Below are positions 32,112-37,007 of a stretch of 51,513 nt of DNA, in pieces. Each line of letters starts with the position of its first letter. Within the stretch, counting starts at the first letter, position 1. This stretch comes from Mesorhizobium sp. (lineage in GTDB: Bacteria; Pseudomonadota; Alphaproteobacteria; Rhizobiales; Rhizobiaceae): NCBI GenBank assembly GCA_022833215.1, contig JAIPUZ010000054.1, positions 1-51,513 of the forward strand. Reading direction: 5' to 3'. Made by a program: the position numbers and the translations under genes. Below the pieces are notes generated by a model. It saw nothing but the letters and a program-made list of their open reading frames with translations, was not told the origin of the DNA and ran no database searches.

Positions 32112-33391
32112 GCAAGGCGTCCGCGAAGCCGTCCGCCGCCGGGCCGTTCTCCGGTTTCGAGCGCATGGTGGCCTGGCGCTACCTGCGTTCGCGCCGCAAG
32201 GAAACGGTCATCTCGGTCATCGCGTCGATCTCGTTCCTCGGCATCATGCTGGGTGTGGCGACGCTGATCGTGGTGATGGCGGTGATGAACGGCTTCCGCG
32301 CCGAACTGCTCACCCGTATCCTCGGCGTCAACGGTCATCTGATCGTGACGCCGATCGACCTGCCGCTCGAGGACTATGAGCAGGTGGCGGACCGTATCAA
32401 CGGTGTGGGCGGCGTCAGGTACGCCCTGCCGCTGATTGACGGGCAGGTGCTGGCGCAGGGCAATGTCGGCTCCGGTACCGGCGCTCTGGTGCGCGGCATC
32501 AGGGGGGCGGACCTGTCCAAAGTGGAAATGGTCGCCGACAATATCCGCTTCGGCACGCTGGAGAATTTCGACCAGTCCGACGGCGTTGCGGTCGGCTCGC
32601 GCATGGCAGGCAATCTCGGGCTGGCGGTTGGCGACACCATCACCCTGACGTCTCCCGACGGGGACGTCACGCCGTTCGGCACCACGGCGAGAATCAAGGG
32701 TTATACGATTGTCGCCATCTTCGAGGTGGGCATGTCGGAATATGACAGCTCGATCGTCTACATGCCGCTGGCGGAGGCGCAGCTTTATTTCAACATGGAG
32801 GATCTCGTGCAAAGCATCGAGATCTATGTCGACAATCCGGATGCCGTGGACGCTATGAAGCCGAAGGTTGAGGAGGCGGCGCAGCGGCCGATCCTTCTGA
32901 GCGACTGGCGCCAGCGCAACCAGACCTTCTTCTCGGCCCTGCAGGTCGAGCGCAACGTCATGTTCATGATCCTGACGCTGATCGTGCTGGTGGCGGCGCT
33001 CAACATCATTTCCGGCCTCGTCATGCTGGTGAAGGACAAGGGCCACGACATCGCCATACTGCGCACCATGGGCGCGACACGGGGAGCGATCCTGCGCATC
33101 TTCCTGATGACGGGTGCGGCAATCGGGGTGGTGGGCACTCTGGCCGGCTTCGTGCTGGGGGTCGTGATTTGCCTCAATGTCGAGCACATACGCCAGTTCT
33201 TCTCGTGGATTTCAGGCACGGTGCTGTTCAACCCGGAACTCTATTTCCTCAGCCAGCTACCGGCCAGGATGGATGCGGGCGAAACGTTCTCGGTCATCCT
33301 GATGGCGCTCGTGCTGTCGTTCATCGCCACGCTGTTTCCTGCCTGGCGGGCGGCGCGGCTCGATCCTGTCGAAGCGCTGAGGTATGAGTGA
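32108..33391 (+). CDS. lolC: LolC/LolE (LolF-type) lipoprotein-releasing ABC permease
   Basis: 427-residue inner-membrane permease of the lipoprotein-sorting (Lol) exporter. It has an N-terminal span after [20 protein letters not shown], a large periplasmic MacB-like core domain, and three C-terminal spans (starting near [20 protein letters not shown]). Alphaproteobacteria usually carry one such gene rather than separate lolC and lolE, probably as a homodimer (LolF-type). The start at 32108 overlaps the proS stop (ATGA). Confidence 0.92.
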
Positions 33392-34071
33392 TGGCGAATG
33401 CCGTTCTCGAACTGAAGGGCGTCGAGCGCCATTATCAGCAGGGCGAGCGCAGGCTCACCATATTGAGCGGTACGGATTTCGTGCTGCGGTCCGGCGAGAT
33501 GGTGGCGCTGGTGGCGCCTTCCGGCACCGGCAAGTCGACCCTGCTGCATACGGCCGGGCTTCTGGAAAAGCCGGACGGCGGTGACGTCGTTCTGGCTGGA
33601 CGAAATTGCGGCAGGCTTTCGGACGATCAGCGTACGGCGATCCGCCGCAACGACATCGGTTTCGTCTATCAGTTCCATCATCTTCTGCCCGAGTTCTCCG
33701 CGCTGGAGAACGTGATGATGCCGCAGCTCATCAAGGGGCTGCCACCCGCGGAGGCGGCCGACAGGGCAGCGCAGTTGCTGGATTACATGCAGCTTGGAAA
33801 GCGCACCACGCACCGGCCGTCCGAATTGTCGGGCGGTGAGCAGCAGCGCGTGGCAATTGCGCGCGCCGTGGCCAACGCGCCGCTGGTGCTTCTGGCCGAC
33901 GAGCCGACCGGCAATCTCGATCCGGTCACCGCTTCCTACGTATTCCAGGCACTGTCGGCGCTGGTTCGGCAGTCGGGCCTCGCGGCGCTGATCGCCACGC
34001 ACAATCATGAGCTTGCCGCCCGCATGGACCGGCGCGTGACCCTTTCCGAAGGCAAGGTCGTTCCTCTCTGA
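33391..34071 (+). CDS. lolD: LolD, lipoprotein-releasing ABC ATPase
   Basis: 226-residue ATPase partner of the preceding permease. Walker A is [12 protein letters not shown], the signature [14 protein letters not shown], Walker [13 protein letters not shown], and the H-loop THNHELA. The ATG at 33391 overlaps the lolC stop by one base; a GTG three bases upstream is also possible. A hairpin without a T-run (34093-34112) follows the gene. Confidence 0.94.
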
Positions 34072-34448
34072 AGCTCCGTTGCTCGCCATAGCCCCGCATC
34101 ACCTGATGCGGGTACCCATACCGGGAGCGTTTTCCGACGACGGGAAGGGTCAGGCAGGGTCTTCTGCGATCCGGGTCGGGCAACGGCTGCGTGAACTGAC
34201 CGGATCAATGGACCACTCCCGATGTCCTGTTGGCCTGAATCTTCGTTACCCTGACATCGTGAGTACAATTCTCGGCATGTGAACGCGGGCGTTGCCGGTT
34301 GATCGCGTGCCTTCCCCGTCAGGCCCGGACACCAATCCTTAACCCCGAAAATCAGCCGAATCCGATTCGGATGAAGATGCAATTCTGTTCATTGACATTT
34401 GAACAGAATTAGAACAAAGTAAGAACATATAGAAAACAGGAGCAAGCC
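34072..34448. other. Intergenic region behind lolD containing a hairpin and the SOS-type control region
   Basis: CCCGCATCA (34093-34101) and TGATGCGGG (34104-34112) form a hairpin soon after lolD that could end its message, though no T-run follows. The middle part (34115-34380) shows no gene. The last 70 bases carry the LexA-type operator of the small gene at 34449. Confidence 0.5.
34381..34426 (+). promoter_or_regulatory. Triple LexA-type (SOS) operator with overlapping 10-bp inverted repeat
   Basis: GAAC occurs at 34401, 34412 and 34423, each separated by exactly seven bases. GAAC-N7-GAAC (read on the other strand as GTTC-N7-GTTC) is the established alphaproteobacterial SOS box, so two overlapping boxes are present. 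AATTCTGTTC (34381-34390) and GAACAGAATT (34401-34410) also form a perfect inverted repeat around TTGACA (34392-34397), a likely -35 box. The -10 box is uncertain. It lies 23 bases upstream of the 28-residue gene. Confidence 0.75.
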
Positions 34449-34535
34449 ATGACCGATCTCGTTCAGGATGTTGTCTCAATGGTGTGCATGGGAACCTTCC
34501 TTGTTTCCATGGCAATGTGGATAGGCGCACTCTGA
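34449..34535 (+). CDS. 28-residue single-span membrane peptide under an SOS-type operator (candidate SidA-like division inhibitor)
   Basis: Too short for ordinary gene calling. ATG at 34449 follows AGGAG with seven bases of spacing. The product begins MTDLVQDVVSMV and continues with a hydrophobic stretch, GTFLVSMAMWIGAL, to the stop at 34533-34535. It is one membrane span with a short polar, acidic N-terminus. It resembles in size and plan SidA of Caulobacter, a 29-residue SOS-induced inner-membrane peptide that blocks division through FtsW/FtsN. That comparison is by plan and regulation only; I cannot claim sequence homology. The TGA is followed by about 290 bases without a recognisable gene. 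Confidence 0.65.
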   Translation: MTDLVQDVVSMVCMGTFLVSMAMWIGAL

Positions 34536-34827: not shown

Positions 34828-35598
34828 TCAGCAGGCAATGTGGGGCACAACCGGGTCGGGCACGGCTGACGACTCCGATTCGATCTTGGTCGCAACAGGG
34901 CCGAAAACGTCTTCGAAGGCGGCTTTCAGCGCGATATCCAGATCGGCCATAGTTACCGGCAGGCCGAGATCGACGAGGCTGGTGACGCCATGCTTCTGGA
35001 CGCCGCAGGGCACGATGCCTCCAAAATGGGTCAGGTCGGGCTCCACATTGATGGCGATGCCATGGAAGCTGACCCATTTGCGCATGCGGATGCCGATTGC
35101 GGCGATTTTGTCCTCGGCCATGGAGCCATCCGGCATCGGCGGGCGCTCCGGCCGCTGCACCCATACGCCGACGCGGTCCTCGCGGCGCTCTCCCCGGATG
35201 TTGAAGGCGTCCAGCGTGCGAATGATCCATTCTTCCAGCGCGGCCACAAAGGCGCGCACATCCTCTCGCCGGCGCTTGAGATCGAGCATGACATAGGCGA
35301 CGCGCTGGCCGGGGCCATGATAGGTGTATTCGCCGCCCCTGCCGGCGGCGTAGACGGGAAAACGCTCCGGATCGATGAGGTCCTCCGCCCGTGCGCTGGT
35401 GCCGGATGTGTAAAGGGGAGGGTGTTCGACGAGCCAGATCATTTCGCGGGCGTCCGCGCTGCGAATCGATTCTGCATAGGTCTCCATGAAGGCCAGCGCC
35501 TGGGGATAATCGAGGAGACCGGGCTCGACGCGCCACCCGACGGGTGCTGAGCCGGCTCTGGCAAAAAACGACGTGGCGATCTGGCTGCGTTCAGGCAT
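34828..35598 (-). CDS. lipB: LipB, octanoyl-[acyl-carrier-protein] transferase
   Basis: Transfers octanoyl groups from ACP to lipoyl domains. From the ATG at 35598 it has 256 residues. Family motifs are [17 protein letters not shown] and, further on, [20 protein letters not shown], where the lysine is catalytic, then [16 protein letters not shown] with the acyl-accepting cysteine. Start choice is uncertain: an in-frame ATG lies four codons upstream (35610). 35598 has GGA at good spacing and fits homologues, which start (M)xERxQIATSF. It faces lolD and the small SOS peptide gene. Confidence 0.93.
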
Positions 35599-35722
35599 GT
35601 GCTGGTCCATATTGCACCCGATCATATGGCGAGAAAAGCCCCGGAGGTCCAGCGGCGAGGGCATGGAGACAGGCGTGCGGGCAGGGCTGTGATTTAAAGC
35701 GCGATTATTCCTCCAGATACCC

Positions 35723-35750
35723 TTGTTTCGGGATAAGCGATTTGCTACAC
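35723..35750 (+). promoter_or_regulatory. Possible promoter of tRNA-Leu
   Basis: TTGTTT (35723-35728) and CTACAC (35745-35750) are spaced by 16 bases, about 35 bases upstream of the mature tRNA. The match is weak. Confidence 0.3.
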
Positions 35751-35784
35751 GCCGCGTGCCGAACATGTTTGGCTCCTACCACGG

Positions 35785-35869
35785 GCGGTCGTGGCGGAAT
35801 TGGTAGACGCGCAGCGTTGAGGTCGCTGTGGGGCAACCCGTGGAAGTTCGAGTCTTCTCGACCGCACCA
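35785..35869 (+). tRNA. tRNA-Leu (anticodon GAG)
   Basis: 85 bases with a full cloverleaf. The acceptor stem is GCGGTCG/CGACCGC and the anticodon arm is CAGCG-TTGAGGT-CGCTG with anticodon GAG. A long class-II variable arm (TGGGGCAACCCG) and the T-arm (GTTCGAGTC) follow, with CCA encoded at 35867-35869. A prophage integrase gene begins downstream and points back at it, so this gene is the probable phage attachment site. Confidence 0.95.
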
Positions 35870-35890
35870 TTCCCTTTCTGGGAACCCATA
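35836..35890. other. Probable prophage attachment site (left end of the prophage)
   Basis: The 3' half of tRNA-Leu is intact, including its CCA, and the integrase gene starts its stop-codon end 55 bases further on. This is the standard layout of a tyrosine-recombinase element in a tRNA gene. The matching right-hand copy is outside the window, so the exact core cannot be read. A TTCCC/GGGAA hairpin lies immediately after the CCA. Confidence 0.45.
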
Positions 35891-35924: not shown

Positions 35925-37007
35925 TCAGGACCATGCATGGGACATGTTGATCCTTTCCATAGCCTTCAGGGCCAGTTTCCAACGTTCTACGCGGCGCGTG
36001 TAAACCTCGCTCGTCTTTGCCTCTGAATGACCATGAATTGCCATGATCTCATACTGGCTACATCCGAGCTCAGCGAGCAATTCACCCAGCCCCTTGCGCA
36101 CGCCGTGTGCAGATAGGTGCGGCAAGCCAGCGCCAACGCACCAGTTCTTGAACATAGCTGATGCGCTGTCCCCGCTGGCATAGGGCTTCCCGCCTCGGCC
36201 GAGCAGATATGTCGCGCCTTGCACTTTCGGGGCTCTCGTTGCTTCCTTCAGTGGAGGGAGCATGGGGATAACCACCTCGGATGATCCCTTCTTGGATGGT
36301 TGCCAACGCAGCGCTTCGACCCCGTCGATCACGCATTCATTCGCGCGCCCAAGGATGGTGGTGTCCTCGATCCGGCACCCTGTCCACAACAGGATCGACA
36401 TTGCGACATGTGGCTTGGTCCCGAGTTTGTGCTTCGCAAAGAACTGTTTGACGTCCGCGGCTTTCCAGGGCGTCGCGCCTTCTCCTTTTTCATAAACCTT
36501 CTCGATCCCTCGCGCCGGATTTGAGCGGACGAACTTGCGCTTCATGGCCCAGTCGTACATCACGGCGACGGCCTCGATAAACGCATCGGCTTGGGCCGGC
36601 GTTGCCGCCATGCCGTCCTTCATCTCAATGAGCTTTTCTTGCGGAATTAGCATCACGCGGTCAGGATCGGAGATAATGCGATTGAGAAGGTTCTTCTTCT
36701 TTTTCAGGGTTTTCGCACTCGACGTTCCAGCTTTGACACGCTTCTCGAAGTGCTCGAAGTAGATGTTCACCAGCCACCCTATTGACCGGGGGACCGCATA
36801 TTCGGAGGCGATCTTTAACGGAGCTGGCTGGTCTCCCGCTCGTGCAACGAGATACTGGCGCTGAAAATCGTCATCGCCGGGAGCGCAAAAGATACGGATG
36901 CGTTTCTTCGGGTTCCCGCGCGGTCGAACCCGATACCGCACCTGGCCCGATGGCAGTTTCTCGATAAGCAAGCCCGGAAAATCAACTTTCATCGGCATAG
37001 TCACCAT
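35925..37007 (-). CDS. int: Prophage tyrosine recombinase (integrase)
   Basis: 360 residues. The N-terminal part (RVRPRGNPKKRIRIF) looks like the short beta-stranded arm-binding domain of phage integrases. The core-binding helices are at about 70-170. Catalytic residues of the C-terminal domain are Arg212 (TGCRIED), Lys240, His301 and Arg304 (SAHGVRKGLGE), His327 (IHGHSEA) and Tyr336 (SEVYTRR). All are present, so it may still be active. It is the last gene of the leftward phage operon and ends 55 bases from the tRNA. Confidence 0.93.
   Translation of the reverse strand: MVTMPMKVDFPGLLIEKLPSGQVRYRVRPRGNPKKRIRIFCAPGDDDFQRQYLVARAGDQPAPLKIASEYAVPRSIGWLVNIYFEHFEKRVKAGTSSAKTLKKKKNLLNRIISDPDRVMLIPQEKLIEMKDGMAATPAQADAFIEAVAVMYDWAMKRKFVRSNPARGIEKVYEKGEGATPWKAADVKQFFAKHKLGTKPHVAMSILLWTGCRIEDTTILGRANECVIDGVEALRWQPSKKGSSEVVIPMLPPLKEATRAPKVQGATYLLGRGGKPYASGDSASAMFKNWCVGAGLPHLSAHGVRKGLGELLAELGCSQYEIMAIHGHSEAKTSEVYTRRVERWKLALKAMERINMSHAWS

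Follow-up and report, generated by a model that had tools for sequence, protein, structure and literature searches.

Does the 28-codon open reading frame between lolD and lipB in this Mesorhizobium genome encode a division inhibitor of the SidA type, produced when the DNA is damaged? A reading of the window (the whole 51,513-nucleotide stretch of DNA that was analysed), made from the sequence alone, had proposed it as a candidate. The reference protein, SidA of Caulobacter, is described in PMC4211646 as a 29-residue inner-membrane SOS inhibitor that acts on FtsW. The features of the window on which the comparison depends are the following.

33388..34071, plus strand: lolD, upstream neighbour (best NCBIfam model LolD, TIGR02211, E 1.2e-76, with a score of 257 bits that lies under the model cut-off of 307.75)
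34381..34410, no strand assigned: 11-bp perfect inverted repeat around TTGACATT (arms 34381-34391 and 34400-34410)
34392..34397, plus strand: TTGACA, probable -35 element, immediately 5' of the operator
34401..34426, plus strand: tandem LexA-type operator GAAC-N7-GAAC-N7-GAAC, two overlapping boxes that have the middle half-site in common
34438..34442, plus strand: AGGAG ribosome-binding site, 6 nt 5' of the ATG, as read from the sequence
34449..34535, plus strand: candidate sidA orthologue, 28-codon ORF with ATG at 34449 and TGA at 34535; product MTDLVQDVVSMVCMGTFLVSMAMWIGAL (with stop)
34828..35766, minus strand: lipB, convergent downstream neighbour (NF010921, E 3.1e-113)

The frame and its AGGAG signal lie where the earlier reading had placed them, and motifs similar to AGGAG were recognized by eye upstream of the peptide gene in relatives. 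The product MTDLVQDVVSMVCMGTFLVSMAMWIGAL combines an acidic N-terminus with a single hydrophobic span at about residues 8-26, and its best 19-residue Kyte-Doolittle mean (1.88) starts at residue 8, in agreement with the predicted single membrane span behind a short acidic N-terminus. Scans of the 28-residue peptide against Pfam and NCBIfam did not return any family, and 0 sites were obtained when the region upstream of the gene was scanned with a sigma-70-type promoter consensus. Besides lolD, lolC/E is also encoded upstream on the same strand.

Three GAAC half-sites with an exact spacing of seven bases had been claimed for the upstream region and were read at 34401-34404, 34412-34415 and 34423-34426, that is, in an 11-base register. 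The operator indeed stands just upstream of the gene, but the last GAAC is separated from the ATG by 22 and not by 23 bases. The Caulobacter LexA consensus given in PMC12700426, GTTCN7GTTC, is the same motif on the opposite strand, and in the genome studied here lexA is preceded by a box of this kind (GAACACAACTGGAAC, separated from the ATG by 61 bases), in line with the assignment of GAAC-N7-GAAC to alphaproteobacterial LexA. Similarly, a box with one mismatch, GAACAAAAGGAGTAC, was found by eye for recA. A single box is weak evidence, because GAACN7GAAC occurs at 160 sites genome-wide versus 63 for a reversed control pattern, and it is conservation that carries the case for the operator. As a separate observation, the motif exceeds its reversed control 2.5-fold across this genome, so that a LexA regulon could be mapped by conservation.

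Conservation was studied in a set of named loci comprising the best 80 of 143 relatives. An exact GAACN7GAAC was present within 75 nt upstream of the peptide gene in 80/80 of these loci and all three half-sites were present in 54/80, compared with an exact box in 1 of 5,924 other 75-nt windows on the same strand of the same loci. A TTGAC starts 8, 9 or 20 nt 5' of the first exact box in every one of the 80 loci, and the spacing of 20 nt would fit loci in which the first half-site is degenerate. The perfect 10-bp inverted repeat around TTGACA that the sequence-only reading had described does exist, and its arms of 11 bp are even longer than stated, but it is not conserved: among 77 distinct upstream regions from the named relatives, that of Aquamicrobium defluvii included, none has a perfect repeat of at least 8 bp. 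A role of the repeat as a second operator was therefore rejected, and it is private to this Mesorhizobium strain and probably incidental.

The closest named relative among the matches listed was that of A. defluvii, with 94.9% DNA identity over 4.4 kb, an identical peptide and two synonymous differences in the coding sequence. The 80 named loci hold 58 distinct coding sequences that specify 25 distinct peptides. For these 58 sequences the pooled pN/pS was 0.154 in the reading frame, compared with 1.25 and 9.47 when the frame was shifted, and the 28-codon gene is therefore under purifying selection as a protein. The conservation check that had been proposed with the candidate thus found both the peptide and the GAAC spacing conserved, with divergence rich in synonymous changes; loss of conservation, named beforehand as one refuting outcome, did not occur. 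No match to the 28-residue peptide was detected when plasmids were searched by tblastn.

The wider family was searched in 151 genomes, of which 82 gave matches at E ≤ 10 and 69 gave none, and 90 of the matches were read as loci, two of which (L224 and L225) look like chance matches. At least 75 nt of upstream sequence was available for 89 of the 90 loci; lolD was found upstream in 53/89, dnaE downstream in 26/89 and lipB downstream in 21/89, and in 68 loci lolD, dnaE or lipB was placed as expected. An exact box within 110 nt upstream was present in 63 of these 68 syntenic loci (65 if one mismatch was allowed), leaving five without an exact box, and an exact triple half-site was present in 13. 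Control windows of the family loci contained an exact box in 4/2,193 and a box with one mismatch in 68/2,193 cases. The neighbours lolD and lipB named by the sequence-only reading were confirmed; as a correction to that reading, the lolD/lipB arrangement is a variant of the lolD/dnaE arrangement of other lineages. In the group to which the window belongs, dnaE is located elsewhere, but the peptide and its operator persist. In one lolD-dnaE locus of the family (L198), a relative with a longer N-terminus lacks a GAAC box, also when one mismatch is allowed; LexA control may have been lost there or another regulator may be employed.

Beyond lipB, a tRNA-Leu(gag) is located at 35785-35869, followed by a convergent ORF on the minus strand (35925-37007) that looks tyrosine-recombinase-like by eye. 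Homology to the A. defluvii locus (L091) ends at 35872 and an integrated element therefore probably begins near this position.

A profile of 28 family peptides (A1), run on 397 genomes of the order, gave strong matches within the own family, in ten genomes, and weak ones elsewhere. Among 20 weak matches that were read (L071-L090), 13 had a box, exact in 11 and altered in one half-site in two, followed by a peptide of 28-32 residues, and most of them a TTGAC-like or TTGCA-like element. Ten of the 13 boxed loci came from six other families, the remaining three being divergent loci of the own family. Each of the 13 precedes dnaE, and 11 also follow lolD. The other seven (L075, L077, L080, L084 and L088-L090) lacked a box and were set aside as chance matches. 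A search of the class with profile A2 gave 29 loci, of which 26 were read and three were too short. Three of them (L232, L233 and L234) showed an exact box near a short ORF, with dnaE nearby in each case; L232 and L234 belong to the same order as the query genome and L233 lies outside of it. The remaining loci of this search look like chance.

In a survey that was independent of the peptide, dnaE was searched for in 162 genomes across the class, yielding 83 matches at E ≤ 1e-40, and the upstream regions of 70 of them were read. An exact box was present in 15/70 regions and absent from 55; only exact boxes were counted, so that 15/70 is a lower bound. One of the 15 (L320) is far from dnaE and looks like chance, whereas in the other 14 no more than 530 nt separate the box from the dnaE match, and a short ORF, in which a hydrophobic stretch was recognized by eye, follows 28-60 nt after the box. 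These 14 cases come from 11 families. A combined profile recognized seven of the 14 peptides at E < 0.01 with the database size set to 100, and these seven include L299, L308 and L309, which closely resemble rows contained in it; the other seven are linked by position and operator alone. The slot before dnaE is thus common to part of the class.

In order to connect the peptide with SidA itself, a family (f115) was selected in which one member, G600, gave the best match (87%) to C. crescentus CtrA in a sample of the class. Among 60 genomes of f115, CtrA of member G950 is 100% and CtrA of G971, from the same genus, 97% identical to what we take to be the sequence of C. crescentus CtrA, and f115 therefore very probably represents the Caulobacteraceae. 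A profile without any f115 row (A4), run on these 60 genomes, gave matches at E ≤ 3 in 54 of them, with a best value of 4e-8. Thirty loci were read, and in 28 of them dnaE is directly downstream; the other two (L262 and L282) lack both a downstream dnaE and a box within 110 nt and were excluded from this count. Each of the 28 dnaE-linked loci has a box within 110 nt (18 exact, ten with one mismatch) followed by a peptide of 29-31 residues of the type MxRLARDxLALASVxGFVWMVCxxAxLVx, and in 8/28 lolD lies within the available flank.

Comparison of profiles with hhalign gave 95% probability and an E value of 3.8e-8 for A2 against a profile of f115 peptides (A5), and 70% and 4e-5 for the narrower A1 against A5, which is modest and extends over 18-22 aligned columns. 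On the A2 profile, 22 f115 peptides of A5 reached a median of 13.2 bits (lowest 8.8). For 1,100 shuffles the 95th percentile was 3.6 bits and the highest score 9.3, and for 100 column-permuted profiles the medians were at most 6.5; since a related profile had been used to find these peptides, there is an ascertainment bias, which shuffling does not remove completely. In G950, the interval between lolD and dnaE encodes a 29-residue peptide preceded by two boxes, one exact and one with a single mismatch (L383). Taken alone, this peptide scores 9.9 bits on A2 and 15.3 on A4, with an E value of 0.15 in the A4 search. The locus L383 strengthens the link to SidA by position, while its low single-sequence score weakens the link by sequence.

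Caulobacter sidA is listed as CCNA_02004 in PMC10769358 and dnaE as CC1926 in PMC1839093. Since the offset of 79 derived from recN (CC1983 = ccna_02062) turns CC1926 into CCNA_02005, we infer that dnaE adjoins sidA; the offset at uvrA (CC2590 = ccna_02673) is 83. From its size, its box, its position and the CtrA-based identification of the genomes, we take the f115 peptide, as in L383, to be SidA. Profile similarity, a LexA-type operator and the position before dnaE agree, and for this reason orthology with SidA is the best reading; the window peptide is very probably an orthologue of Caulobacter SidA. The analysis thus speaks for the proposal of a SidA-like candidate and extends the likeness to profile, operator and dnaE position, with LexA binding, induction by damage and division inhibition as the predicted parts.

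The window peptide and SidA have in common their size (28 versus 29 residues), one predicted span, a GAACN7GAAC (= GTTCN7GTTC) LexA-type operator and a locus with lolD upstream and, in lineages with that order, a position beside dnaE. With the f115 peptide at the sidA locus it also shares the N-terminal core [RQ][DE]xx[SA]LxSxxxF. In contrast, the downstream neighbour in the window is lipB, the N-terminus is acidic and lacks arginine, and the second half of the span diverges. The operator differs as well, being an overlapping double box, as in 54/80 close relatives and 13/68 loci of the wider family, whereas about 97% of Caulobacter SOS promoters have a single box according to PMC12700426. Another single-span inhibitor of the same late-divisome complex, DidA of Caulobacter (CCNA_03212), differs by its 71 residues, its SOS independence and its binding to FtsN, a comparison that is based on its description in PMC4211646.

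YneA of Bacillus subtilis, SosA of Staphylococcus aureus and SulA of E. coli are larger than the window peptide and have another layout, and are analogues by description. They resemble the proposed SidA orthologue as SOS-induced division inhibitors (PMC13396833 and PMC6851548, and PMC4211646 for SulA), and an interaction of YneA with FtsW is stated in the title of PMC13396833.

Some homologues occupy a different setting. Ten of the 90 family loci lacked lolD, dnaE and lipB within 3 kb as well as an exact box within 110 nt:

Box-less homologue loci: L200, L205, L206, L209, L211, L218, L222, L227, L229, L230

An exact box is present 403 nt upstream in L229. On A2, the ten homologues scored 12.9-49.4 bits, each above all of its own 300 shuffles. 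Nine of the ten, all except L205, were read with wider flanks (L290-L298), and for seven of them a total of ten selected neighbours was compared with PHROG. Matches comprised integrases (L290, L291), CI-type repressors (L290, L292 and, weakly, L291) and RecT (L292, L293, L296); the single neighbour from L294 had no match and that from L295 matched a family of unknown function. In the prophage-type homologues (L200, L206, L209, L218, L222, L229 and L230, the wider loci L290-L296 and L298, and L370-L382 from IMG/VR), the start codon often overlaps or abuts the stop of the preceding ORF. Locus L211 (L297 with wider flanks) has neighbours that look chromosomal, mutL-like and lpxK-like by eye, and may not be a prophage gene. 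We also noted that L205 and L211 encode longer relatives (at least 40 residues) with a common ...DNDF stretch, each closely behind an open frame of 76-78 codons.

Scans of IMG/VR with two small alignments detected relatives in 12 and 1 contigs, respectively (L370-L382), one of which (L370) has the same length (42,186) and the same peptide as a genome contig already in the set. None of these contigs carried an exact box within 300 nt of the relative. In L382, as judged by eye, the peptide gene is flanked by a repressor-like gene on one side and exonuclease-/RecT-like genes on the other. A scan of viral contigs with A1 gave no relative, and tblastn of one prophage peptide in a phage collection gave one unconvincing match (E 2). 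A broader account of this distribution, which we judge somewhat more likely than not, is that SidA would not be peculiar to Caulobacter but an ancient alphaproteobacterial checkpoint of the lolD-dnaE locus, captured by temperate phages of Hyphomicrobiales, uncoupled from LexA and placed in the early region, in several cases near CI-type repressors or RecT, where it would stop division of the host during phage induction. Lambda Kil, a small phage protein acting on host division, would be a parallel. A further parallel is DicB of prophage Qin, described in PMC10448788 as a small prophage protein that acts on host division; the prophage copies, likened to DicB and Kil by description, differ from both in being homologues of a host checkpoint peptide.

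For the gene in the window, we consider it likely that it is the local SidA orthologue, controlled by LexA and blocking the late divisome after DNA damage; LexA binding, induction by damage, membrane insertion and division inhibition via FtsW are the steps that we infer. LexA dimers on the overlapping GAACN7GAAC boxes, just 3' of TTGACA, would keep the promoter shut. After DNA damage, active RecA would lead to self-cleavage of LexA and the 28-residue peptide would be made and would insert as a single span into the inner membrane. There, as taken from SidA in PMC4211646, it would hold FtsW, together with FtsI/FtsN, in an inactive state, so that division over damaged chromosomes would not occur. 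We speculate that the overlapping double box might accommodate two LexA dimers one helical turn apart and provide tighter or graded repression. The proposed target is present, since the FtsW/RodA/SpoVE family has a single member in this genome, FtsW.

Four other explanations were weighed against this orthologue of SidA acting on FtsW. It is unlikely, though it deserves attention, that a peptide related to SidA by descent has acquired another target, for which FtsI, FtsN and a protein of polar growth in Hyphomicrobiales are examples. In its favour, the groups differ in the part of the span that follows F17 (a WIGAL end versus an FVWM core), and Rhizobiales lack a canonical Rod complex according to PMC8546619; however, the N-terminal core D/E7, S/A10, L11 and F17 is kept in both groups together with the operator, and FtsW was the only protein of its family found in the genome.

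TisB of E. coli is a 29-residue LexA-controlled peptide with an antisense RNA, IstR, and forms an amphipathic helix with charged residues. A TisB-like SOS toxin, which would depolarize the inner membrane and lead to dormancy with no block of the divisome, would be of the same size class and would share the single hydrophobic span and the LexA-type operator. Yet none of the 34 rows of A2 has D, E, K or R at positions 9-24, unlike the amphipathic helix of TisB, and position and sequence core are common to the f115 peptide at the sidA locus, which makes a toxin of this type quite improbable.

There is only a slight chance that the ORF is an inert leader, or marks a transcript start, through which dnaE would be placed under SOS control. 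The collinear order of box, peptide and dnaE in many of the lineages examined would fit, but in the window peptide and operator are kept where lipB is convergent and dnaE is not downstream; the best dnaE match of the own genome lies on another contig (C23), where the preceding 1.3 kb contain no exact box (L368). Selection on the amino-acid sequence, and prophage homologues that have neither a close box nor dnaE, argue in the same direction. An ordinary ORF behind an accidental GAAC repeat, suggested by the 160 sites in the genome, has next to no probability, being refuted by selection on the reading frame and by conservation of the operator relative to controls.

Among the matches listed, the literature searched, in which few subscription papers are covered, contained no report of SidA outside Caulobacter and none of an SOS peptide at lolD/dnaE in Hyphomicrobiales. 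The main texts of a Sinorhizobium small-proteome paper (PMC10117765) and of an sRNA survey (PMC2245857) do not mention lolD, lipB or LexA. A peptide of the SidA type is known, whereas its wide distribution and the phage branch look new. For rhizobia and their relatives, no agent that stops division after DNA damage was named among the matches listed in the literature searched, and genes of 28 codons are easily missed. If the gene encodes SidA, a single small deletion would make the SOS division block directly testable in a large part of the Alphaproteobacteria, and the important residues of SidA would be indicated by the spread of sequences. From the prophage copies it would follow that phages borrow a checkpoint peptide of their host.
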